From contig JADMIG010000021.1 in the NCBI GenBank assembly GCA_015478725.1, positions 1 to 47,934 on the forward strand: a stretch of DNA of 47,934 nucleotides. Reading direction: 5' to 3'. Under the pieces are notes generated by a model that saw only the letters and a list, made by a program, of their open reading frames with translations, made no database searches and was not told the DNA's origin. This document shows positions 10,972 through 25,318 of this stretch, piece after piece; within the stretch, counting starts at the first letter, position 1, and every line of letters starts with the position of its first letter. The DNA is from Chloroflexota bacterium. Its GTDB lineage: Bacteria; Chloroflexota; Limnocylindria; Limnocylindrales; CSP1-4. The position numbers were made by a program, and so were the translations under genes.

Positions 10972-11031
10972 GTCTCCGCGTTCATTGACCGGCATCGCGT
11001 GCCGTGGCGAGTTTGGCCCGGCGGATCGGGG

Positions 11032-11982
11032 ATGGCCGCTGCCGGGAGAGCACGGGTGACAGGCACCACGCCCGTCGGGTCGGTCGCCTTCGGCGCACCC
11101 GGCCTCCCCGAGTTCCGGAGCACACGCCGGATCTATCTCGACATCTTCCGACGTCGGATCATCGTGAAGTTCGCGCTCACGGTCATCCTCTGGGCGATCG
11201 TCGCCTTCATCTCCCTGCCGCTCCTGTGGGCCGTCCTCACGTCCCTCAAGCCGGACCCGGAGACGATGCATTACCCGCCGACGCTCCTCCCCGCAGCGGC
11301 GACCCTCAACAACTACATCCTGCTCTTCCAAGTCCTGCCGTTCGCCCGGTACTTCCTCAACACCGTCCTCATCGCGGGCGCGACCTCGGTCGCGACGATC
11401 GTCCTCTCAACGCTCGCGGCCTACGCGATGGCCAGGTTCCGCAATCGGGTCGCCGATTTCGGCGGCCTCGTCGGGCTCGTCGCGTACATGCTGCCGGGCA
11501 TCCTCGTCGTGGTGCCGGTCTTCACGGTGGCCCACGCGCTCAACGCGCTCGACTCGCCCGTCGCCCTCACCGTCCTCTACATCGCGTACTTCGTGCCCTT
11601 CGGGGTCTGGCAGCTCCGGTCGTATTTCGCCGGCCTCCCGCGCGACCTCGAGGACGCCTCGATGGTCGACGGGGCGAGCCGCTTCGAGGCGTTCTACATG
11701 GTGGTCCTGCCGCAGGCCCTGCCAGGGATCATCGCGACCGGGATCTTCACCTTCGCCGTGGCATGGAACGAGTACCTCTTCGCCTCGCTTCTCCTGTACA
11801 CACCGTCGAACCAGACGCTCAGCGCCGGCCTCGCCACCGTGCTGGTCGGGCAGCTGAACCTCTATTCGTGGGGGATCCTCATGGCCGGCTCGACGCTCAT
11901 GACGCTACCCGTCCTGATCGTCTTCATGTTCGTGCAGCGCCAGCTCGTGGCCGGGTTCAGCAGCGGCGCTGTCAAGGGGTAG
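11032..11982 (+). CDS. ABC transporter permease, MalG/CUT1 type
   Basis: About 316 residues with six transmembrane helices after a basic cytoplasmic N-terminus. The EAA loop, which docks on the ATPase, is visible as DASMVDGASRFEAFYMVVLPQ. The SLKPDPE segment following the first helix is typical of carbohydrate-type MalG subunits. It is the first gene of a five-gene unit: permease, binding protein, permease, MmgE/PrpD, ATPase. ATG 11032 was chosen. GTG 10999 and GTG 11056 are possible alternatives, none with a strong ribosome site. Confidence 0.9.
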   Translation: MAAAGRARVTGTTPVGSVAFGAPGLPEFRSTRRIYLDIFRRRIIVKFALTVILWAIVAFISLPLLWAVLTSLKPDPETMHYPPTLLPAAATLNNYILLFQVLPFARYFLNTVLIAGATSVATIVLSTLAAYAMARFRNRVADFGGLVGLVAYMLPGILVVVPVFTVAHALNALDSPVALTVLYIAYFVPFGVWQLRSYFAGLPRDLEDASMVDGASRFEAFYMVVLPQALPGIIATGIFTFAVAWNEYLFASLLLYTPSNQTLSAGLATVLVGQLNLYSWGILMAGSTLMTLPVLIVFMFVQRQLVAGFSSGAVKG

Positions 11983-12007
11983 GAAGCGAATGAGCGAGGA
12001 GGGCTCG

Positions 12008-13453
12008 ATGGACAACGATCAGGGCCGTGAACGCCACGTACCGGCGATCCTGGACCGGCGTCTCAGCCGGCGGCAGGTCCTCGGCGCCGGCGCTGCGGCG
12101 GCAGGAGCGGCGTTCCTCGCCGCGTGCTCGACGAGCTCGTCCGCCTCGCAGGCTCCGGCGGGCAGCGCCGGCGCGAGCGCGGGGGGCGGGTTCAACCTCA
12201 TCAACTTCTTCACGACAGAGGACGACCCGGCCACGCAGGCCGTCGTCACCGCGGCGGCAGAGGCGTTCTCCGGGAAGAACCCGGGTACCGAGATCACTCA
12301 GATCCTCATGAGCAACGCCGACCGCGATCAGCGGATCCTCACCGGCCTCAGCGTCGGCCAGGATCTCGGCCTGTTCGAGTGCGGCGCACCGTACCGCGGC
12401 CAGTTCATCGACGCGGGCTACCTCTATCCGCTCGACGACCTCATCGCGCAGGTCGGCGCGGACCAGTTCCCGGCCGGCACGCGGTCCATCGTCAACGGCC
12501 ACGACTACGTCTTTCCGTACGGCGGCGGACCGATCAGTGCCTGGTCGCGATCCGACCGGGTGCCGACCCAGCCCACGAGCTACGCGGACCTCAAGGGCAT
12601 CGCCCAGCAGAACACGGGCGGCGGCAAGTACGGTCTCGCCCTCGCGTCCGGCGGATTCGGTCCCTTCGACTACGTCTTTCCGCCGATGGTCTGGGCCAAT
12701 GGCGGCGACTACTTCGACCCACAGGGCAACGTCGTCTTCGACTCACCGCAGGTCGGGCAGGCGATCCAGGACTACGTGGACCTGCTCGCCTTTGCCCCGT
12801 CAGGGAACACGAACTGGACGTTCTACTCGCTCATCGACGCGTATCTCAGCGAGCGCGTCGCGATGTCGTTCTATCCGGGTCGGCTCGGCACGAGCATCCC
12901 CGGCAAGGCCCCCCAGCTCGAATCGATCACCCAGGTCGAGCCGACGCCGTTCGGGCCGGTGGACGTCCACGAGTGGCGCTGGAGCTATCTCGCCATCGAT
13001 GCCAAGACGAAGAACCCGGATCTCGCCAAGGCGTTTATCAAGTTCCTGCTCACGGACAAGAACGGCGTCGCCTACGCGAACAGCGTGCCGGGTCAGCTCA
13101 TCCCCGCCGTCAAGAGCGTCCGCGATGCGGCCCTCGGGGACACGTCCAATGCGTACGTCCAGAAGCACAAGGACTGGCTGACGACCCTGTACGGCCAGAT
13201 CGACAAGTCCACCGACATCAGCGGCGCGATGGGCGTCATGTCGACCGGTCAGCTCAAGCTGTACAACGGGCTGCCGGCGCCGTGGGCGGCGACCGCCTGG
13301 GGCATCAATCCAGTGGACATGCAGATGATGCAGAAGATCGTCCTCGAGAAGATGTCCGTGAAGGACGGCCAGGCCTGGGCGGTGAGCCAGTACAAGGGCA
13401 TCGTCGCCGACTACAAGACCAAGCATCCGAACTGGAAGCCGTACTCCGGCTAG
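12008..13453 (+). CDS. ABC transporter substrate-binding lipoprotein (family 1, Tat-exported)
   Basis: About 481 residues. The signal is a twin-arginine type, SRRQVLG at residues 20-26, ending in a lipobox LAAC with Cys40, so the protein is exported folded and lipid-anchored outside the membrane. The mature part has the layout of MalE-type (cluster 1) sugar-binding proteins, including a segment near FPYGGGPISAW and the C-terminal KAFIKFLLTDKNGVAYAN. A polyol, oligosaccharide or organic acid cannot be distinguished. The ATG at 12008 has GAGGAGGG five bases upstream and was preferred to ATG 11990. A very stable hairpin follows the stop codon, as is common after binding-protein genes. Confidence 0.92.
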   Translation: MDNDQGRERHVPAILDRRLSRRQVLGAGAAAAGAAFLAACSTSSSASQAPAGSAGASAGGGFNLINFFTTEDDPATQAVVTAAAEAFSGKNPGTEITQILMSNADRDQRILTGLSVGQDLGLFECGAPYRGQFIDAGYLYPLDDLIAQVGADQFPAGTRSIVNGHDYVFPYGGGPISAWSRSDRVPTQPTSYADLKGIAQQNTGGGKYGLALASGGFGPFDYVFPPMVWANGGDYFDPQGNVVFDSPQVGQAIQDYVDLLAFAPSGNTNWTFYSLIDAYLSERVAMSFYPGRLGTSIPGKAPQLESITQVEPTPFGPVDVHEWRWSYLAIDAKTKNPDLAKAFIKFLLTDKNGVAYANSVPGQLIPAVKSVRDAALGDTSNAYVQKHKDWLTTLYGQIDKSTDISGAMGVMSTGQLKLYNGLPAPWAATAWGINPVDMQMMQKIVLEKMSVKDGQAWAVSQYKGIVADYKTKHPNWKPYSG

Positions 13454-13465
13454 ATCCGATCCGAA

Positions 13466-13494
13466 GGCGCGCCGTCGCCTCGCGACGGCGCGCC
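13466..13494 (+). terminator. Stable hairpin after the binding-protein gene (attenuator or mRNA-stabilising)
   Basis: A perfect 13-bp stem (GGCGCGCCGTCGC, 13466-13478, with 13482-13494) around a three-base loop CTC, 12 bases after the stop. It sits in the only sizeable gap of the operon, ahead of the second permease. Such hairpins let binding proteins be made in excess over membrane subunits. That use here is inferred. Confidence 0.6.
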
Positions 13495-13568
13495 ACGACG
13501 GCTCGACCCGCAGGGCCGCCCGAGGAGGAGTCCATCGTGTCCGCGTGCGTCGCTCCGGCTGATCGATC

Positions 13569-14537
13569 GTGACGAGCAGCCCTGCGCCCATCGCGAAGAA
13601 GAAGGTCCGCTGGCGGACGACCCGCCGCGGCTACCCATTCCCGCGGCTCGGCCTCCATATCTCGGACTCGCGGCTCGCCCTGGTGCTCATGCTGCCGGCG
13701 CTCGTCCTCATGCTCGTCTACGTCGCGTATCCCCTCTGGAGCGTCGTTACGAGCGCATTCCAGCAGTGGGCGACGCTCAACGGGCCCGGGACCTTCGTCG
13801 GCCTCGACAACTTCGCCTGGCTGCTCGCGGGCGGCCAGTTCCTGCAGGCATTCGGGCACTCGCTGTACTACACGATCGGCAACATCGTCGCCCAGACGCT
13901 GCTCGGGTTCGCGATCGCCCTGCTCCTCCACCAGTCGCTGCCGGGCCGGAACATCGCCCGCGGCGCGATCCTCTTCCCGTTCATCGTGCCGGCGGTCGTG
14001 GCGGCCCTCATCTGGGGCTACCTGCTCAACGACCTGACCGGCGTCGTCAACTACGTCCTCATCTCGCTCCACATCATCGACCAGCCGCTCGGCCTGCTCT
14101 CCGACCCGGGTGGTGCGATGAACACGGTCATCGCGATCTCCGTCTGGAAGTACATGCCGTTCATGATCATCCTGTTCCTTGCCCGGCTCCAGACCGTACC
14201 GGTCGATCTGACGGAGGCGGCCCGCTCCGACGGTGCGAGTCCGATGCAGGTCCTTCGCTTCGTCATCATCCCGTGGATGACGCCGGTCATCATCGTCGCC
14301 GTCATGCTCCGGACGATCTGGAGCTTCAACGAGTTCGACATCCCGTTCCTCATGACCCAGGGTGGTCCCGACCAGAGCACGATGATGCTGCCGGTCCTCA
14401 TCCGGCAGCTCCTCATCGACAACCTCGACCTCGGGAGGGCGGCGGCCGTCTCGGTCGTCATGATCCTGCTCCTCGCGATCTCGGGGGGCGTCTATGCGTA
14501 CCTGTTCCGCCGCGGAGAGCGAATCCTCGATGAGTGA
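13569..14537 (+). CDS. ABC transporter permease, MalF/CUT1 type
   Basis: 322 residues with six transmembrane helices. After a basic N-terminus the first helix reads LALVLMLPALVLMLVYVAYPLW, and VVTSAFQQW follows it as in MalF/UgpA proteins. The EAA loop is DLTEAARSDGASPMQVLRFVIIPW. The start is GTG. The last eight bases overlap the MmgE/PrpD start (ATGAGTGA), so translation of the next gene is probably coupled. It forms the transmembrane heterodimer with the MalG-type permease upstream. Confidence 0.92.
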   Translation: MTSSPAPIAKKKVRWRTTRRGYPFPRLGLHISDSRLALVLMLPALVLMLVYVAYPLWSVVTSAFQQWATLNGPGTFVGLDNFAWLLAGGQFLQAFGHSLYYTIGNIVAQTLLGFAIALLLHQSLPGRNIARGAILFPFIVPAVVAALIWGYLLNDLTGVVNYVLISLHIIDQPLGLLSDPGGAMNTVIAISVWKYMPFMIILFLARLQTVPVDLTEAARSDGASPMQVLRFVIIPWMTPVIIVAVMLRTIWSFNEFDIPFLMTQGGPDQSTMMLPVLIRQLLIDNLDLGRAAAVSVVMILLLAISGGVYAYLFRRGERILDE

Positions 14538-16017
14538 CCTCGCGACCAGCCGACCCGACGCCACCACTCCACGCCCCGCACCCGATCGCGCGTCACACGA
14601 CGCGACAGGTGCGCCGCTCGAGCCCGGCCCGACCGCCGAGGTCGTCCGCTTTGTCGCCGACCTCCGGTTCGACGATCTCTCGCCGGAGATCCGGGCCGTG
14701 GCCCGGCGCCATATCCTCGACAGCCTGGCGGTCATGGTCGCCGGGCACCTCGAGGAGGGGACCGGTCTCGCCCTCCGCCGTGCCGTCGCCTATCGGGGAG
14801 TGGAGGAGGCCGCGGTCGTCGGGACCGCCCACCGGCTACCGGCGCCGCTGGCCGCGTTCGTCAACTCGTTCAGCGGCCACGCCCTCGACTACGACGACAC
14901 GCAGCTCGCGACCCGGCCCGAGTCCGTCTACGGGCTTCTCACCCACCCTTCCGTCCCGGTCCTCGGCGCCGTCCTTGCGGTGGGGGAGACGGCCGACGCT
15001 GACGGCCGGGCGCTCCTGACCGCGTTCGTCGCGGGGACGGAGGCGGAATGTCGCATCTCGGATGCGTCGAATCCGGCCCACTACCAGCGCGGCCTTCATT
15101 CGTCCGGCACGGTCGGCACGATCGGCGCGGCGCTCGGGTCGGCGAATCTGCTCGGGCTTGACGACGAGGCCACGACGCGCGCGACGTCCATCGCGGCGAG
15201 TCAGGCGGCCGGCCTCCGCGAGAATTTCGGGACGATGACGAAGCCGCTCCACGTGGGGCGTGCTGCGCAGCACGGCCTCGAGGCGACGCTCCTCGCCCGG
15301 GACGGGTTCACCGCCGCGGCCGGGATCCTGGAGGCGCCGCGCGGCTTCTTCTCGGCGATGGGCGGGACCCCCGCCCTGGAGCTCATCCACGGTCGTCTCG
15401 GCGACCCGTGGTTCTACCTCCATCCGGGTGTTTCCATCAAACCGCATCCGGGCGGCTCGCTCACGCACCCCGCGATGGCGGTCATGAGCGACCTCATCGC
15501 GCGCCACGACCTCGCCCCGGAGGCGGTCGAGTGGGTTCGGGTCGGGACGAACGCGAACATGCCGAACGCCCTCATCCACCATCGGCCGTGGACCGCCCTC
15601 GAGGCGAAGTTCAGCATGGAATTCAGCATGGCGATCCTCCTCCTCCGGCGTCGGGCGGGCATCGCCGAGTACCGCGACGAGGTCGTCCGGGAACCCGACG
15701 TGCAGACGATGATCGGCCGCGTCTCGATGGAGGTGGATCCGGTCTGCGAGGCGGCCGGCTACGCGCGGATGCTCAGCCGGATCACGATCGGCCTGAAGGA
15801 CGGTCGCGAGCTGTTCGCGGAGGGCGACCTCGGTGTCGGTCATCCGGCGAACCCCATGTCCGCCGAGGTGTTCGATGCAAAGGTCCGCGAGTGCCTCGAA
15901 ACGGCTCTCGAGCCGGCCGCGGCCGCGCGAGTCATCGAGCTCGTCGATGGGATCGAGGCGTTGCCGAGCGTCCGCGACCTGATCGCCGCACTCCAGCCGA
16001 CCTCCGGACGGTCCTGA
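14530..16017 (+). CDS. MmgE/PrpD-family protein embedded in the ABC operon
   Basis: 495 residues. Known MmgE/PrpD members include 2-methylcitrate dehydratase, cis-aconitate decarboxylase and iminodisuccinate epimerase. They act on di- and tricarboxylates without metal or cofactor. Seen here: the N-terminal all-helical entry ARRHILDSLAVMVAGH, the HALDYDDT segment with the conserved Asp-Asp, and LRENFGTMTKPLHVGRAAQ with the conserved K-x-H-x-G-x-A core. The first about 30 residues are a low-complexity extension. It starts inside the MalF-type gene and ends two bases before the ATPase gene. This suggests that the imported substrate, or a product of it, is a carboxylate acted on by this enzyme. 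The exact reaction is not evident. Confidence 0.9.
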   Translation: MSDLATSRPDATTPRPAPDRASHDATGAPLEPGPTAEVVRFVADLRFDDLSPEIRAVARRHILDSLAVMVAGHLEEGTGLALRRAVAYRGVEEAAVVGTAHRLPAPLAAFVNSFSGHALDYDDTQLATRPESVYGLLTHPSVPVLGAVLAVGETADADGRALLTAFVAGTEAECRISDASNPAHYQRGLHSSGTVGTIGAALGSANLLGLDDEATTRATSIAASQAAGLRENFGTMTKPLHVGRAAQHGLEATLLARDGFTAAAGILEAPRGFFSAMGGTPALELIHGRLGDPWFYLHPGVSIKPHPGGSLTHPAMAVMSDLIARHDLAPEAVEWVRVGTNANMPNALIHHRPWTALEAKFSMEFSMAILLLRRRAGIAEYRDEVVREPDVQTMIGRVSMEVDPVCEAAGYARMLSRITIGLKDGRELFAEGDLGVGHPANPMSAEVFDAKVRECLETALEPAAAARVIELVDGIEALPSVRDLIAALQPTSGRS

Positions 16018-16019
16018 CC

Positions 16020-17144
16020 GTGGCCCAGGTCCGACTCGAGGGGCTCGGGAAGCGCTTCGATCGCCGGCGGGCCGGCATCGAGGCGGTCGCCGCGCTCGAG
16101 CCCACCGACCTGACGATCGACGACGGGCGCTTCGTCGTGTTCGTCGGCCCGTCCGGATCCGGCAAGACGACCGCGCTCAGGATCATCGCCGGGCTGGAGC
16201 CGCCGACGACCGGGCGAGTCTTCATCGGCGACCGCGATGTGACGATGCTGCCGCCCCGCGAGCGCGATGTGGCGATGGTCTTCCAGTCCTATGCGCTGTT
16301 TCCCCATCTCACCGTCTTCGAGAACCTCGCCTTCGGCCTGCGGCTCGCCGGCCTCCGACCGCCGGAGATCCGGGAACGAGTCGCCGCGGCCGCGGAAGAG
16401 CTCGAACTCGAACCGCTCCTCAGCCGGTTCCCCCGTCAGCTGTCCGGGGGTCAGCGGCAGCGCGTCGCGGTGGGACGGGCGATCGTCCGGCAGCCCCAGG
16501 TCTACCTCATGGACGAGCCCCTCTCGAACCTTGACGCGAAGCTCCGGGCACAGACGCGGGTGGGATTCCGTCGCCTCCACGAGCGACACCACACGACGAC
16601 GATCTACGTGACCCACGACCAGACGGAGGCGATGACGCTTGGCGAGACGATCGTCGTCCTCCACGACGGCGTCATCCAGCAGGTGGCGACGCCGGAGGAG
16701 CTGTATCGCCATCCGCGGAACGCCTTCGTCGCCCGGTTCATCGGCAGCCCGCCGATGAACCTCCTCGAGGTGGAGGTGCGGGACGGCGCGACCGGTCCGG
16801 CCTTCGCCAGCGATCAGATCGATCTGCCGGTACCCACGGGCCGACGGTCGGCCCTTGCCTCTGGTGGTGCGCGCCGGCTCCTGCTCGGCGTCCGACCGGA
16901 GGACCTCCACCTCGACGCCGGCTCGAACGGCGACCGGAGCGTCGTCCGCGGCCAGACGGACTTCATCGAGTACCTCGGTCCGAGCACGCTCGTCCACGTC
17001 CGGGTGGGCGGCCAGGAACTCGTCGGCAAATTCGCCGGCGAGCCATTCTTCACGCCCGGTTCACCGCTGTCACTGCACCTCGACCTCGCCAACGTGCAGC
17101 TCTTCGACCCGGGCACCGGGCTCAACCTCGACGCGAGCGCCTGA
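16020..17144 (+). CDS. ABC transporter ATP-binding subunit (MalK/UgpC type)
   Basis: 374 residues. It has Walker A GPSGSGKTTAL (about 46-56), a Q-loop in VFQSYALFPHLTV, the signature LSGGQRQRVAVGRAI, Walker B VYLMDEPLSNLD and H-loop VTHDQTEAM. A C-terminal TOBE/OB extension of about 130 residues is typical of cluster 1 importers. It energises the two permeases of this operon. The start is a GTG two bases after the MmgE/PrpD stop. The reading frame continues upstream but only as a shadow of that gene. No promoter of its own is seen. Confidence 0.95.
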   Translation: MAQVRLEGLGKRFDRRRAGIEAVAALEPTDLTIDDGRFVVFVGPSGSGKTTALRIIAGLEPPTTGRVFIGDRDVTMLPPRERDVAMVFQSYALFPHLTVFENLAFGLRLAGLRPPEIRERVAAAAEELELEPLLSRFPRQLSGGQRQRVAVGRAIVRQPQVYLMDEPLSNLDAKLRAQTRVGFRRLHERHHTTTIYVTHDQTEAMTLGETIVVLHDGVIQQVATPEELYRHPRNAFVARFIGSPPMNLLEVEVRDGATGPAFASDQIDLPVPTGRRSALASGGARRLLLGVRPEDLHLDAGSNGDRSVVRGQTDFIEYLGPSTLVHVRVGGQELVGKFAGEPFFTPGSPLSLHLDLANVQLFDPGTGLNLDASA

Positions 17145-18559: not shown

Positions 18560-19330
18560 TCAGACGCCGCCGTCGATGGCCGACCGTCCGTGGTGGACCG
18601 GGAGACCCTCGGCGTCCGGGGCGTCCGCGAGGTCGGGCTCGTCCGGATCCGCCGCATCCTCCCGCGGCCCGGCGGCTACGCGGAGGCCGGCGCTCGAGAG
18701 TGAGGTCGCCCGTCGACGGCGGCCGGGTCGGCGGGCGGACCGGCCGGCCGGACTCTCGCGCGACGAGCTCTGCCGTTCGTCGGCCGCCGCCTGGGTCCGG
18801 AATACCTGGGCTTCGAAGCCCTCGAGCAGGCGCAGACACCGTTCGAGCCAACCGAGGGCCGCATCACGGTTCGGGGCGCCGAACCAGTCGCGCTGGCTCA
18901 CTCGCTCGAACCAGCCGACGATCTTCTCGTATTCGATGCGGATCTCCTCCGCCTCCTCGTACGTGAAGTTGCGGCGGAACGTCTCGAACTCGATCTCCTT
19001 GGTGAAGTTGATCTCGCAGTTCTCGATGATCTCTTCGTAGTGGCGGGCCGTCTGGTCGACGAACCGCGCCACGAGCTTCTCCGTCTCGACGGCCGGCAGC
19101 TGGCGGAGTGGCAGAAGGTGGTACTCGCCCGCCGAGTCGGTGATCTTCTCGAGGAGCGGCTCGAGCTCATGGGCGATCTGCTTGTTCTGGGGGAAGACGG
19201 TCACCGATTGCTGGAGGTGGACGGCGCCGAGCTTCTTGAGCATCCGCCAGACGTACACGCGATTCGCGGTCGGACGGGCCGGCATCCGATAGACGAGGAG
19301 CATGAAGCGGGTCGGGCGAGTCGTGGGCAT
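18560..19330 (-). CDS. ChrB N-terminal-domain protein
   Basis: About 256 residues. Residues 5-180 match the ChrB N-terminal domain pattern: a winged-helix-like start RFMLLVYRMPARPTANRVYVWRMLKKLGAVHLQQSVTVFP, then a helical region with CEINFTKEIE and NFTYEEAEEI, ending in RDWFGAPNRDAALGWLERC. In ChrB proteins this domain accompanies chromate sensing. The usual ChrB C-terminal domain is absent, replaced by about 75 residues of disordered Arg/Ser/Ala-rich tail. ATG 19330 has GGAG six bases upstream and was preferred to ATG 19384. It is cotranscribed with the MFS gene and divergent from the COG4280-like membrane protein. Confidence 0.8.
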   Translation of the reverse strand: MPTTRPTRFMLLVYRMPARPTANRVYVWRMLKKLGAVHLQQSVTVFPQNKQIAHELEPLLEKITDSAGEYHLLPLRQLPAVETEKLVARFVDQTARHYEEIIENCEINFTKEIEFETFRRNFTYEEAEEIRIEYEKIVGWFERVSQRDWFGAPNRDAALGWLERCLRLLEGFEAQVFRTQAAADERQSSSRESPAGRSARRPGRRRRATSLSSAGLRVAAGPREDAADPDEPDLADAPDAEGLPVHHGRSAIDGGV

Positions 19331-19413
19331 GGCGATCTCCGGAAGCGGTCTGGCGACGGGTCGGACGGGTTCCGGGGGCATCATACGGCCCCCTCGTCGT
19401 CACTCATCGGACC

Positions 19414-19507: not shown

Positions 19508-20278
19508 GTGAATCTTGCGGTCGCCGCCCTGCCGGCGTTCCTCGCCTCGATCGTCGAATTCGTCGAGGCCCTGACCATCGTCCTCGCGGTCGGGGTGACC
19601 CGCCAGTGGCGGTCGACCCTCATCGGCGTCGTTGCCGCCGTGCTCGTCCTGTCCGTCCTCGTCGGCGTCTTCGGCACGGCGATCGTCCTCTTCGTCCCGA
19701 TCGCCGTGCTCCGGCTCGTCATCGGCGGGTTCCTCGTCATCTATGGACTGCAGTGGCTCGTGAAGGCGGTCCTCCGCGCGGCGGGCGCGAAGGCGAAGCA
19801 CGACGAGGCCGCCATCTACCAGGCGGAGATCGCGGCGATGCGCGACGAGGCCCCGGTCCCCGCCTCGGGCATGGACTGGATCAGCTTCACCGTCGCGTTC
19901 AAGGGCGTGCTCCTCGAGGGTCTCGAGGTCGCCTTCATCGTCGTCACGTTCGGGGCCTCGGCGGGCCAGCTCGGCCCCGCGGCACTCGGAGCGACCGTGG
20001 CCGGCGTCCTCGTCCTCGTCGTCGGGGCGGCCGTCCATCGCCCGCTCGCCAACGTTCCAGAGAACGGCCTGAAGTTCTCGGTCGGGCTCATGCTCACGAC
20101 GTTCGGGACCTTCTGGGCCGGCGAGGGGATCGGCATCGTGTGGACCTGGAGCGACGCCACCCTCCTCGCCCTCTTCGCCATCTACCTCGTCGCCTCACTC
20201 GCGGCCGTGTGGTACGTCCGGAACCGGATCCTTCCGGCCCGGATCCGCCCGACGATGGCCGCCGCTCTCGACAAGTAG
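19508..20278 (+). CDS. Predicted integral membrane protein, COG4280-like, with two acidic membrane motifs
   Basis: 256 residues with about seven transmembrane helices in two related halves. Each half opens with an acidic helix: EFVEALTIVLAVG (about 17-29) and LLEGLEVAFIVVTFG (about 137-151). Such E-x-x-E helices in duplicated folds recall FTR1 iron permeases and Gdt1/LysE-type cation exporters, but their exact signatures (REGLE, ExGD) are not present. I therefore do not assign a substrate. The GTG start has GAAGGAG seven bases upstream. A promoter with an overlapping palindrome lies ahead, and a small membrane protein gene follows after nine bases. Confidence 0.8.
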   Translation: MNLAVAALPAFLASIVEFVEALTIVLAVGVTRQWRSTLIGVVAAVLVLSVLVGVFGTAIVLFVPIAVLRLVIGGFLVIYGLQWLVKAVLRAAGAKAKHDEAAIYQAEIAAMRDEAPVPASGMDWISFTVAFKGVLLEGLEVAFIVVTFGASAGQLGPAALGATVAGVLVLVVGAAVHRPLANVPENGLKFSVGLMLTTFGTFWAGEGIGIVWTWSDATLLALFAIYLVASLAAVWYVRNRILPARIRPTMAAALDK

Positions 20279-20541: not shown

Positions 20542-21390
20542 TCATTCATCGATGGACGGTCCACGGATGGAGGATCTCCGACGGGGCCCTCCATCCACGG
20601 TCACGCGAGTCGGAGCGGGTCCGTCGTAGACGAGGCGCGACGGATCGATCGTCCGCATCGGCTGGCCGCGCTCGAGTTCCTCGGCGATGTGGGCGGCGAG
20701 GCCCGCGGTGCGTGCAACCACGAAGGTGAAGTCGCCGAGGACGGGCGGCAGTCCGATCGCATCGAGACAGGCCGCGATCGCACCGTCGACGTTGATGGGG
20801 ATGGGCCGCGACGCTCGTGCGCCGACCGCCCGGGCGAGCGCCTGGACCGCGGCCGGTGCGCCGGCGTCCGGATAGGCCTCCGCGAGGAGTCCGAAGAGTC
20901 GCTCGGCGCGGCGATCGAACTCGTGGCTCCGATGGCCGATCCCGGGGACCCGCTGGCCGACGGCTCGGCGGGATGCGACCTCCGCCTCTGCCCAGGCGTC
21001 GAACGGTGGGATCGCAGGCCGACCGGCGAGGATCTCCATGAGGCCGGTGACGACGGTCCCGTGCAGGTGGCCGAAGGACAGGATCCCGGCGGCGAGCGCC
21101 GATATCGACCCGGATCGGCTCGCCGTCGCAGTCCGAGCGGCGATGGCGGACGGGGCACGGGCACCGTGGTCGATCGCGGCGACGAGGCAGGCTTCGAAGA
21201 TCCGGGCCGCCCGGTCCTCCGGCTCGTGGCCCAGCCAGAGGAGCAGGATCGTCGCGGCGAACGAGCGGCGGCCGATGAGCTCGTCGACCGGCCGGCCGCG
21301 AAGGTAGACGCGCTCCGCATCCGCATCCGTGAGCGCGGACGCCCAGGCGGCGGCCTCGAACGGCCGGCGTGCATCGGCGGGATCAGGCAT
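20542..21390 (-). CDS. Short citrate-synthase-fold protein, probable citryl-CoA lyase
   Basis: 282 residues, about two thirds of a normal citrate synthase, matching the size of stand-alone citryl-CoA lyases. Hallmarks are present: VYLRGRPVDEL (the YRGY..EL segment), the first catalytic His in FGHLHGTVV, the second in VPGIGHRSHEFDRRAE, and the catalytic Asp in PINVDGAIA. FVVARTAGLAAHIAEE provides the CoA-side Arg. Citryl-CoA lyases split citryl-CoA to oxaloacetate and acetyl-CoA, and related enzymes could use methylcitryl- or similar CoA esters. It starts within the last eight bases of the CoA-transferase gene, so the two should be coupled in translation and function. Confidence 0.82.
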   Translation of the reverse strand: MPDPADARRPFEAAAWASALTDADAERVYLRGRPVDELIGRRSFAATILLLWLGHEPEDRAARIFEACLVAAIDHGARAPSAIAARTATASRSGSISALAAGILSFGHLHGTVVTGLMEILAGRPAIPPFDAWAEAEVASRRAVGQRVPGIGHRSHEFDRRAERLFGLLAEAYPDAGAPAAVQALARAVGARASRPIPINVDGAIAACLDAIGLPPVLGDFTFVVARTAGLAAHIAEELERGQPMRTIDPSRLVYDGPAPTRVTVDGGPRRRSSIRGPSIDE

Positions 21391-22612
21391 CGGTCGCCTC
21401 CGTAGCGCGGATCGGTCCGGCGAGGTCGCGCCAGCGCGGGTTCGGATCCTCGCCGACCCGTGGACCCAGGCCGCGCACGCGCCCGGGCGTACGGGTGAGC
21501 TTCGGCACGATACCCGGCGTGAGGATCGGCTTCTGGAGCCGCGGATCGACGACCTCGACGAGCATGTCCCGCGTCTGGAACTGGGGGTCTGCGACGATGT
21601 CGGCGACGCTCGCGATCCGGCTGCACGGGATCCGCGCCGCGCGGACCGCGATCACGACCTCGTCACGCGTGCGACCGACGGTCCAGGCGCCGATCGCCGC
21701 ATCGAGCTCATTCGCATGACGGACGCGTCCCAGGTTCGTCCCGAGCTCCGCGGACGTCGCGAGATCGGGCCGCCCGATGAGCCCCATGAGCCCAGCGAAC
21801 AGCCCGTCCGAGTTCGCCCCGATGACGACGTACTCGCCGTCCGAGCAGCGGTAGGCGTTCGTCGGGGCGGAATTGTGGGCGATGTTGCCGGTCCGCTCGC
21901 GGATGCGTCCGAAGAGGCTGTACTCGGGAAGGATCCCTTCGAGGAGGCTGAAGACCGCCTCGGAGAGGGCGACGTCCACGACCTGCCCGGCCCCCGACCG
22001 GTCGCGCTCGAAGATGGCGACGAGGGCGCCGATGACGCCGTAGAGCGCCGCGATCGAATCGCCGAGGCTCAGGCCGGCGCGGGTCGGCGGCCGGTCGGGC
22101 TCGCCGGTCACATAGCGGAGACCGCCGGCCGCCTCGGCGATGGTCCCGAAGCCGGGTTGGTCGCGTAGGGGTCCCGTCTGTCCGAAGCCGGAGATCCGGA
22201 CGATGACGAGCCGTGGGTTGTCACTCTGGAGCTCGGCCGGATCGAGGCCCCACGCTTCGAGGCGGCCCGGTCGGAAGTTCTCGATCAGGATGTCCGCCTC
22301 GCGGGTCAGCTCGCGCACGATGGCCCGTGAGGCCGGATCGTGGAGGTCGAGGGCGAGCGACCGCTTGCCACGGTTCTGGACGAGCGACCACAGCGATCCG
22401 GCCCCGTCGACGGACATCCCCCACGCGCGGTGGGGATCGCCTTCCGGTGGCTGCTCGATCTTGAGGACGTCGGCACCGAAATCGGCGAACAGTCGGCCGG
22501 CGAACGGTCCGGCGATGAGTGTCCCAAGCTCCAGCACGCGGAGGCCGGCGAGCGGACCGGGATCCGGGGATCCGGGCGACGTCCCGAGGGACTCGTCTGT
22601 CGTCCACGTCAC
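21383..22612 (-). CDS. Type III (CaiB/BaiF) CoA-transferase
   Basis: 409 residues, full length. These enzymes move CoA between carboxylic acids through an aspartyl-CoA anhydride. Seen: the N-terminal GLRVLELGTLIAGPFAGRLFADFGADVLKIE fingerprint, LALDLHDP, the NFRPGRLEAWGLD segment, ISGFGQTGP, and LSLGDSIAALYG holding the expected catalytic Asp. NAYRCSDGEYVVIGA is the C-terminal family motif. The donor and acceptor are unknown, but the coupled lyase downstream suggests citrate or a citrate analogue. The start is GTG, with GGAG about nine bases upstream. Confidence 0.92.
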   Translation of the reverse strand: MTWTTDESLGTSPGSPDPGPLAGLRVLELGTLIAGPFAGRLFADFGADVLKIEQPPEGDPHRAWGMSVDGAGSLWSLVQNRGKRSLALDLHDPASRAIVRELTREADILIENFRPGRLEAWGLDPAELQSDNPRLVIVRISGFGQTGPLRDQPGFGTIAEAAGGLRYVTGEPDRPPTRAGLSLGDSIAALYGVIGALVAIFERDRSGAGQVVDVALSEAVFSLLEGILPEYSLFGRIRERTGNIAHNSAPTNAYRCSDGEYVVIGANSDGLFAGLMGLIGRPDLATSAELGTNLGRVRHANELDAAIGAWTVGRTRDEVVIAVRAARIPCSRIASVADIVADPQFQTRDMLVEVVDPRLQKPILTPGIVPKLTRTPGRVRGLGPRVGEDPNPRWRDLAGPIRATEATDA

Positions 22613-22750: not shown

Positions 22751-23827
22751 TCAGCGCGTGAGCGTCACCTTGCGGAGGTTGGGCGGCGTCTCCGGGTCGC
22801 GGCCGGATACGAGCGCGAGGTGGTACGCGAAAAGCTGGCACGGGACGATGGCGACGATGGGCGAGAGCCACTCCGGCACGTCGGGCGGAACCGCGATCGA
22901 GGTGGCGCCAAGGGATCGGACGGCCGGATCGTCGGAGAGGACGAAGAGGTCGGCGCCCTGTGCCCGCAACCGTCCGAACAGGTCGGCCATGCCCGGCACG
23001 GCGGGGCCCTTCGTGGCGACGGCGAGAACGGGGAAGCCCGGCGCCACCACGGCGATCGGCCCGTGCTCGAAGTCGGCTGCCGAGTAGGGATCGGCCGCGA
23101 CGCCCGCCACCTCCTTGAGCTTGAGCGCCCATTCGCGGGCGGTGGCGTAGTGGTAGCCGCGGGCGAGGACGGCACAGCGGGTCAGTCCGGCCCGCGCCAG
23201 CGCGGCCGACACGACCTCGGGCTCGAGGTCGACGGCCGCCTGGAGGGACGCCGGCAGGCGCTCGAGTGCCTCGTCGCGCCAGCCAGGACCGACGCCGTCG
23301 TCCGTGCCCCCGACGCCGACGATTCCCACCCTCGCCAGCGCCTCGGACAGAAGCGCGACCGCGACGAGCTCGGCGACATAGGTCTTCGTCGCCGCGACCG
23401 CGCGCTCCTCACCGGCGACGAGCGGCACCACGAAGTCCGCTGCTTCGGCGAGCGGTGACGACGGATCGTTCGTGACGGCGAGCGTCAGCGCCCCCTGCCG
23501 GCGGCCGTCCTCGACCACGCCGACGACGTCCGGCGATCGACCGGATTGGCTGATCCCCACGACAAGGGCGTTCTCGAGCCGGGGCCCGTGCCCATAGAGC
23601 GATGCGAGCGACGGCGCGGCCAACCCCACCGGGAGCCCATTCCGCTCGCCGAGGACGTACTGAGCGTACGTCGCCGCGTGATCGGATGTGCCACGGGCGG
23701 CGATCAGGACGAATCCCACGCCGCGGCGCTCGACCGCGCTCGCGAGCTGATCGAGGGGTCGACGTCCCGACTCGAGCAGCCGCCGGACGACGGCCGGCGC
23801 CTCGGCGAGCTCCGAACGCATCGTCAT
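22751..23827 (-). CDS. SIS-domain sugar isomerase/deglycase (GlmS isomerase-like, no glutaminase domain)
   Basis: 358 residues with two SIS domains. The first contains ARGTSDHAATYAQY and the phosphosugar loop SQSGRSPDVVG, then VAATKTYVAEL. The second contains EWALKLKEVAGV and DFEHGPIAVV, matching the GlmS isomerase active site around the catalytic Glu of LKLKE. The N-terminal glutaminase domain of GlmS is absent, so it probably isomerises or deaminates an amino-sugar phosphate with free ammonia, or cleaves a phosphorylated amino-acid conjugate. ATG 23827 has GGAGGT five bases upstream. The frame runs on upstream only as a shadow of trpB. Confidence 0.88.
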   Translation of the reverse strand: MTMRSELAEAPAVVRRLLESGRRPLDQLASAVERRGVGFVLIAARGTSDHAATYAQYVLGERNGLPVGLAAPSLASLYGHGPRLENALVVGISQSGRSPDVVGVVEDGRRQGALTLAVTNDPSSPLAEAADFVVPLVAGEERAVAATKTYVAELVAVALLSEALARVGIVGVGGTDDGVGPGWRDEALERLPASLQAAVDLEPEVVSAALARAGLTRCAVLARGYHYATAREWALKLKEVAGVAADPYSAADFEHGPIAVVAPGFPVLAVATKGPAVPGMADLFGRLRAQGADLFVLSDDPAVRSLGATSIAVPPDVPEWLSPIVAIVPCQLFAYHLALVSGRDPETPPNLRKVTLTR

Positions 23828-23900
23828 CGTGCACCTCCGGTGGGTGTCGCCTCGAGGATCAGGGGCAGGATACGGCGCGCTTGTGCCGTTCGGCGCGGAC

Positions 23901-23947: not shown

Positions 23948-25318
23948 ATGACCCTGGACCGGACGAAGTACATCCTCGACGAGGATCGGATCCCCCGCGC
24001 CTGGTACAACATCGTCGCCGACCTTCCGGTCCCGCCGCCGCCGGTTCTCCATCCCGGTACCGGACAGCCGATCGGGCCGGCCGATCTGGCGCCCCTCTTC
24101 CCGATGGCCCTCATCGGCCAGGAGGTGAGCACGGATCGCGAGATCGAGATCCCCGAACCGGTCCGTCAGGCGTATGCCCTGTACCGGCCGTCCCCCCTGT
24201 ATCGGGCCCACCAGCTCGAGAAGGCCCTCGGGACGCCGGCCCACATCTACTACAAGTACGAGGGCGTGAGCCCGGCCGGGAGCCACAAGCCGAACACGGC
24301 GCTCGCGCAGGCCTTCTACAACAGGGACGCCGGCGTGAAGCGCCTCGCCACCGAGACGGGCGCCGGGCAGTGGGGGACCGCGCTCGCCTTCGCCGGTGCC
24401 CGGTTCGGCCTCGAAGTCAAGGTCTACATGGTGCGGGCGAGCTACGACCAGAAGCCGTACCGCCGCAACCTCATGGAGGTCTACGGCGCCGAGGTCGTCG
24501 CGAGCCCGAGCCCGACGACCGGCTATGGACGACGGGTCCTCGAGGCGACGCCGGACAATCCGGGCTCGCTCGGCATCGCCATCAGCGAGGCGGTCGAGGA
24601 TGCGGCCTCCCGCGACGACACGAAATACGCGCTCGGCTCGGTCCTCAATCACGTCCTCCTCCATCAGACGGTCATCGGCCAGGAGGCGATCGAGCAGATG
24701 GCGCTCGCCGGCGAGGAACCGGACATCGTCATCGGCTGCGCCGGCGGCGGCTCGAACCTCGCCGGGCTGACGTTCCCGTTCATCGGCCGCGGCCTGCGCG
24801 GCGGACCGAAGCCGCGGATCATCGCCGTCGAGCCGGAGGCGGCGCCCTCGCTCACCAGGGGTCAGTACCGCTATGACTTCGGCGACACGGGGCAGATGAC
24901 GCCGCTCGTCAAGATGCACACCCTCGGCCACGACTTCATCCCCGAGCCGATCCACGCCGGTGGTCTCCGCTACCACGGCATGGCGCCGCTTGTCAGTCTC
25001 CTCAAGGAGCAGGGCCTCATCGAGGCTCGCGCGGTCCACCAGCGATCGACGTTCGAGGCGGGCGTCCGGTTCGCGCGGGCCGAGGGGATCCTTCCGGCGC
25101 CGGAGCCGGCGCACGCGATCCGGGTCGCGATCGACGAGGCCCTCCGCGCTCGCGACGAGGGGCGGCCCACGACGATCCTCTTCAACCTCTGCGGCCACGG
25201 CCACTTCGACCTGTCGGCGTACGAGCGGTATCTCTCCGGCTCGCTCGAGGACTTCGAGTATCCGGCCGAGCGTGTCGCCGAGGCCCTGAGGGCACTCGAA
25301 CCGCTGCCGGTCGGCTGA
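23948..25318 (+). CDS. trpB: Tryptophan synthase beta chain, TrpB2 type
   Basis: 456 residues, the length of the TrpB2 subgroup, which is longer than TrpB1 and carries an N-terminal extension ([14 protein letters not shown]) and the [12 protein letters not shown] segment. The PLP lysine is in [12 protein letters not shown], the catalytic Glu in [13 protein letters not shown], the phosphate loop is GCAGGGSN, and CGHGHFD marks the C-terminus. It joins indole and serine to tryptophan. TrpB2 proteins often act without TrpA as indole-salvage or serine-deaminase enzymes, and no trpA is nearby. The ribosome site is GGAGG. It is the first gene of an operon with lipB and a GalT-like gene. Confidence 0.95.

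Follow-up and report, generated by a model that had tools for sequence, protein, structure and literature searches.

A candidate ATP-independent acid-cleaving module composed of a family III CoA-transferase and a citryl-CoA-lyase-like protein

In the window analyzed here, i.e., the whole 47,934-nucleotide stretch of Chloroflexota DNA, the gene of a family III CoA-transferase overlaps that of a citryl-CoA-lyase-like protein, and these two genes fairly probably constitute an ATP-independent acid-cleaving module. The lyase groups with the stand-alone citryl-CoA lyases in terms of its sequence, its position in the trees and its predicted fold, and not with the 427-aa citrate synthase of the same genome. 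The pairing of such a lyase with a CoA-transferase is widespread and apparently uncharacterized. No description of it was found in the open-access papers, the subscription journals being largely outside the coverage of this search. The features of the pair are as follows:

20542..21390, minus strand: citryl-CoA-lyase-like protein with the citrate synthase fold (ATG start, 282 aa)
21383..22612, minus strand: family III (CaiB/BaiF) CoA-transferase (GTG start, 409 aa, nucleophile Asp D185)
21383..21390, minus strand: overlap between the CoA-transferase and lyase genes (8 bp)

Both open reading frames and the eight-base overlap are as described in the initial annotation of this DNA. A GGAGG motif resembling a ribosome-binding site lies directly upstream of the ATG of the lyase, within the CoA-transferase gene, and GGAG precedes the GTG of the CoA-transferase; the translation of the two genes may well be coupled. 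Only four CoA_transf_3 genes are present in the genome, and the probability of one of them neighboring the lyase gene by chance, roughly estimated from the genome size, is about 0.2%. In view of the small number of these genes and the recurrence of the pair across phyla, a chance adjacency was rejected.

The lyase matches the Pfam family Citrate_synt (PF00285) with a score of 112 bits, only at positions 139–355 of the 357 positions of the model, which correspond to the C-terminal part; the N-terminal half of citrate synthase is absent. With its 282 aa, it has the size of a stand-alone citrate-synthase C-terminal fold (about 250–290 aa), by which citryl-CoA lyases of the PRK06224 type are recognized. 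Based on the alignment, residues H75, H110, H153, and D202 are equivalent to H238, H274, H320, and D375 of citrate synthase, and R161, R227, and R246 to the substrate-binding arginines R329, R401, and R421' (we take the names and roles of these citrate synthase residues to be established). None of these catalytic and substrate residues is altered in the lyase or its three nearest orthologues. In the trees of 115 and 58 proteins, the lyase is separated from the full-length citrate synthases with a support of 100/100, and forms a clade with three orthologues of the same family or class (100/99). This split and the missing N-terminal half rule out the possibility that the protein is a true citrate synthase or a 2-methylcitrate synthase. 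The initial annotation, which had reported that both catalytic histidines and the aspartate were kept, had named a grouping with true citrate synthases or with inactive paralogues as grounds for refuting its proposal: the trees place the protein apart from the former, and the residues H75, H110, H153, and D202, all present, set it apart from the latter.

Among the solved structures, the best match to the lyase is 6hxp, the Hydrogenobacter citryl-CoA lyase (E 4.5e-34). This structure also ranks first among the fold matches of the AlphaFold model (pLDDT 88, pTM 0.84), the input of which consisted of the window and locus sequences only; it is followed solely by the citryl-CoA-lyase modules of ATP-citrate lyases until rank 40, and the full citrate synthases come after. 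The score of the lyase is below the cut-off of every NCBIfam citryl-CoA-lyase model (the best being 165.1 vs. 212 bits with NF004869), and it was therefore regarded as a divergent member and named "citryl-CoA-lyase-like."

The CoA-transferase carries the full CoA_transf_3 domain (PF02515; 398.6 bits vs. a cut-off of 23.3), and scores far under every substrate-specific NCBIfam model, namely those for formyl/oxalate, succinate/glutarate, mesaconate, and carnitine (best score 262 vs. 750). The nearest solved chain is 4ed9. Since the aspartate of the GYD motif present in other members is replaced by a glycine, a loss of the nucleophile was considered and rejected: the nucleophile, of the Frc D169 type, is present about 30 residues later as D185 in the motif LSLGDS, a position presumed to be that of the family III nucleophile by reference to Frc. 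The nucleophilic aspartate occurs in all the CoA-transferases linked to intact lyases (21/21).

Homologues of the lyase were collected from plasmids, GTDB contigs, and genomes of the class and phylum of the window, and their neighbors were scored by profile searches. Partners were assigned within 4 kb for 100 homologues carrying all four catalytic residues: a SucC/SucD-type ATP-dependent synthetase was found in 58 cases, a family III CoA-transferase in 21, CitF, the CoA-transferase (alpha) subunit of citrate lyase, in six, and none of these in 15. No locus among the 100 carries two partner types (no-overlap hypergeometric P 2.6e-10, a value assuming independent loci, which these loci are not). 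As the homologues were chosen for their similarity, and hence not at random, with Aminicenantes and related MAGs strongly represented, these counts reflect exclusivity and recurrence rather than natural frequencies. The TIGR01584 model confirmed the identity of CitF (552 bits vs. a cut-off of 501). The partner type tracks the tree of the lyases, on which the CoA-transferase and SucCD labels require only one to two changes.

In the orthologous loci L155 and L156, the lyases are 46–50% and the CoA-transferases 68–69% identical to those of the window, and both genes belong to the same operon; the association with a CoA-transferase is thus kept in these orthologues as well as in many distant relatives, whereas the initial annotation had named a lack of adjacency in relatives as refuting its idea. 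In L155 and L156, the CoA-transferase and lyase genes are separated by a TPP-enzyme gene and an aldehyde-dehydrogenase gene, so that the CoA-transferase could serve another step there. The identities of the lyases and of their partner CoA-transferases are correlated (Mantel r 0.69, p 0.0002), a correlation which could also be explained by co-inheritance of the operon. The relatives adjoin uptake systems (TTT, TRAP, DASS, ABC) and IclR or LysR regulators. In Ruegeria, the pair is located between a tricarboxylate transporter and genes for an acetate/propionate kinase and a phosphotransacetylase-type enzyme, an order that fits the release and recycling of acetate and acyl-CoA turnover. On the megaplasmid of Cupriavidus metallidurans CH34 (L005), a CoA-transferase gene adjoins that of a lyase homologue, although the genome paper of this species reported that the route combining citryl-CoA synthetase and lyase is not encoded (PMC2864759).

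Several other arrangements were observed among the relatives. In MAGs of Calditrichota and Caldisericaceae (L059, L074, L082, L094, L105), CitF is encoded in divergent orientation beside the citrate-synthase-fold lyase (e.g., L082:4339-5898, minus strand), along with isocitrate-dehydrogenase-like and MmgE/PrpD genes, and the surroundings showed no CitE. At L118:7843-8379 and about 50 other loci, the gene directly downstream of the synthetase-type lyase encodes a conserved protein of about 178 aa with no NCBIfam match. The catalytic His and/or Asp are lost (HVHS, HFHA, HFHT, HHHT) in L180, L177, L182, L184, L165, L169, L173, L013–L015, and L166–L168; several of these residue-losing proteins are encoded beside family III CoA-transferases, that of Burkholderia glumae being part of an aromatic-ring-cleavage cluster with LeuCD. 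The lyase operons of L155, L156, L157, L158, L116, and L164 include genes for a TPP enzyme, aldehyde dehydrogenases (some of them acylating), AroE or a type II dehydroquinase, IclR, and ABC uptake systems, and possibly specify an undescribed hydroaromatic (quinate/shikimate-type) breakdown route.

The genome to which the window belongs harbors a separate full-length citrate synthase (a 427-aa open frame), and its sole SucC-type (ATP-grasp_2) protein is encoded on another contig. No SucCD-type synthetase partner was found near the pair in the window, and CitF, CitE, and CitD are absent at the locus, the two proteins of which belong to PF00285 and PF02515. The pair is flanked by genes with no obvious link to it: a ChrB-N protein (18560-19384, minus strand), a membrane protein with a weak iron-permease match (19508-20278, plus strand), a SIS-domain-like protein (22751-23834, minus strand) and a TrpB-like enzyme (23948-25318, plus strand), the last two having been identified by eye. 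An ABC transporter and an MmgE/PrpD protein are encoded about 4.5 kb from the pair on the opposite strand, in an operon spanning 10999-17144, in which the following putative partners were identified:

14494..16017, plus strand: MmgE/PrpD family protein (507 aa), a possible pathway partner
11990..13453, plus strand: ABC solute-binding protein SBP_bac_1, 33–35% identical to those in the distant loci L108 and L124

L108 and L124 each combine the lyase with PrpD and with a solute-binding protein related to that of the window. Neither a lyase nor a family III CoA-transferase was found near this solute-binding protein in five other genomes of the phylum, or near the PrpD orthologue in three genomes of the class. 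Since the transporter or PrpD occurs elsewhere without the pair, the linkage of this operon to the pair is weak, and the ABC and PrpD genes were not counted among the established parts of the module. In L202 and L203, an operon similar to that of L108 (ABC, PrpD, methyltransferase, and solute-binding protein) lacks the CoA-transferase/lyase pair and carries a gene recognized by eye as being of the isocitrate-lyase/PEP-mutase type, as though a lyase of one type had taken the place of the other.

These data show the families of the two proteins, the presence of the catalytic residues, the position of the lyase in the trees, the conservation of the pairing, and the mutual exclusion of the partner types; that the CoA-transferase acts on the substrate of the lyase is inferred, as are the direction of the reaction, the identity of the substrate, and the lack of ATP use. 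The CoA-transferase would move CoA from an acyl-CoA onto a 3-hydroxy-3-carboxy acid, for instance citrate or one of its close analogues. The donor would plausibly be succinyl-CoA or the acyl-CoA, acetyl-CoA or another one, that the lyase releases. The lyase would then split the CoA ester into a 2-oxo acid and an acyl-CoA, in the reverse of the C–C bond formation performed by citrate synthase, and the acyl-CoA released could donate its CoA in the following round. If citrate and acetyl-CoA were used, citrate would overall be converted into oxaloacetate and acetate, which is the citrate lyase reaction, but on free CoA.

The simplest reading of the partner distribution is that the CoA-transferase fills the role of citryl-CoA synthetase: three unrelated and mutually exclusive activators for one lyase family would be expected if substrate activation were their shared job. 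The replacement of the ATP-dependent synthetase by a CoA-transferase, as proposed in the initial annotation, is therefore strengthened by the three exclusive partner types; neither the use of citrate itself nor the direction in which the reaction runs gained support, and ATP-independence is a deduction. This mechanistic idea is the best one available, bringing together a known lyase type and a known transferase family in an unrecorded combination. The pocket, in which the carboxylate-binding arginines are intact, would favor a citrate-like acid, and the variety of the operons suggests that several substrates are used across the family. More tentatively, and with rather less than an even chance of being right, the citrate-synthase-fold acyl-CoA lyases might be a general module with three interchangeable activators, the CoA-transferase form of which would be an undescribed ATP-free route for the cleavage of tertiary hydroxy acids serving several unknown catabolic pathways, one of them in the window organism.

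The chance is about even that the pair, by the same chemistry, acts physiologically not on citrate but on a citrate-like compound formed in a different catabolic pathway, for example an acid of the methylcitrate/alkylmalate type or the product of opening a hydroaromatic or aromatic ring; this alternative concerns the substrate only and overlaps with the main explanation. It is consistent with the operon of the nearest orthologues, which besides the CoA-transferase and the lyase encodes a TPP enzyme, an aldehyde dehydrogenase, and AroE and is accompanied by IclR and an ABC system of the branched-chain type, with the acylating aldehyde dehydrogenase and AroQ in L158 and L116, with the tartrate dehydrogenase in loci of Actinobacteria, and with the intradiol dioxygenase, hydroxylase, and LeuCD alongside in B. 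glumae, although the lyase-like protein of the latter lacks H110 and D202. The window pair, however, has no such neighbors, the closest proteins in its own genome to the TPP enzyme of this operon are paralogues showing 33–37% identity (37% at most), and the three arginines that bind the carboxylates of citrate are all retained.

The remaining alternatives call the cooperation, the direction or the activity of the two enzymes into question. The lyase might condense an acyl-CoA and an oxoacid and keep the CoA ester, from which the CoA-transferase would free the acid and pass the CoA on; both reactions are reversible in principle, as is established chemistry, and the sequence does not fix their direction, but the uptake systems and the IclR/LysR regulators beside the relatives are typical of catabolism and the genome already has a citrate synthase, which makes synthesis unlikely. 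Another improbable possibility, to which we give a similar weight, is that the two genes are co-transcribed and belong to separate pathways, the lyase using citryl-CoA made by the succinyl-CoA synthetase of the TCA cycle while the CoA-transferase serves another acid. The genome does encode a SucC homologue, and family III CoA-transferases have highly varied substrates; against this, the CoA-transferase/lyase linkage recurs in many lineages and excludes the SucCD linkage, and is paralleled by the CitF linkage. It is very improbable that the lyase is a paralogue that has lost its catalytic activity or acquired another purpose: some sister groups lack the catalytic His and Asp (HFHT, HVHS, HFHA) and the score lies under the citryl-CoA-lyase cut-offs, but the residues in question are complete in the window lyase and its three nearest orthologues. 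The activation of an acid by CoA transfer followed by its cleavage is the reading that we prefer.

If this is true, neither a reverse TCA cycle nor an ATP-dependent cleavage of citrate can be deduced from the annotation of a citryl-CoA lyase in a genome. The widespread operons that pair a CoA-transferase with such a lyase would then act as an ATP-saving counterpart to citrate lyase that works with free CoA, the acid being citrate or a related tertiary hydroxy acid. As the pair consists of only two soluble proteins, it can be assayed directly.

The proposed module shares features with several known systems. In the 3-hydroxypropionate bicycle of Chloroflexus, family III CoA-transferases are paired with lyases of other folds: the malate/citramalate CoA-transferases activate hydroxy acids without ATP before cleavage, as proposed here, but the malyl-/citramalyl-CoA lyases belong to the CitE or the HMG-CoA-lyase type instead of the citrate-synthase type. 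Citrate lyase (CitDEF) likewise performs a CoA-type transfer onto citrate and then its cleavage without ATP, with recycling of the acetyl group; it differs in the family of its CoA-transferase CitF, in the TIM-barrel fold of its lyase CitE, and in the ACP CitD, which carries the thioester, and none of these subunits is present in the module. Itaconate degradation also involves activation by a CoA-transferase and cleavage of the CoA ester by a lyase, which belongs to the CitE superfamily instead of having the citrate-synthase fold, and includes an intervening hydratase step. An MmgE/PrpD isomerase is part of the itaconate degradation cluster in many bacteria (PMC12290011). The C-terminal module of ATP-citrate lyase has the same citryl-CoA lyase fold, but the enzyme is ATP-dependent and joins this module to a SucCD-type one, either by fusion or in a complex. 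The ATP-dependent two-enzyme CCS/CCL route of citrate cleavage (PMC5459899) of Hydrogenobacter and relatives likewise uses a stand-alone citrate-synthase-fold lyase with the same catalytic residues, 6hxp being the best match to the window lyase in both sequence and fold. The window lyase, unlike that of this route, forms a separate clade below the family cut-offs, and its putative activator is a family III CoA-transferase instead of an ATP-dependent SucCD-type synthetase.
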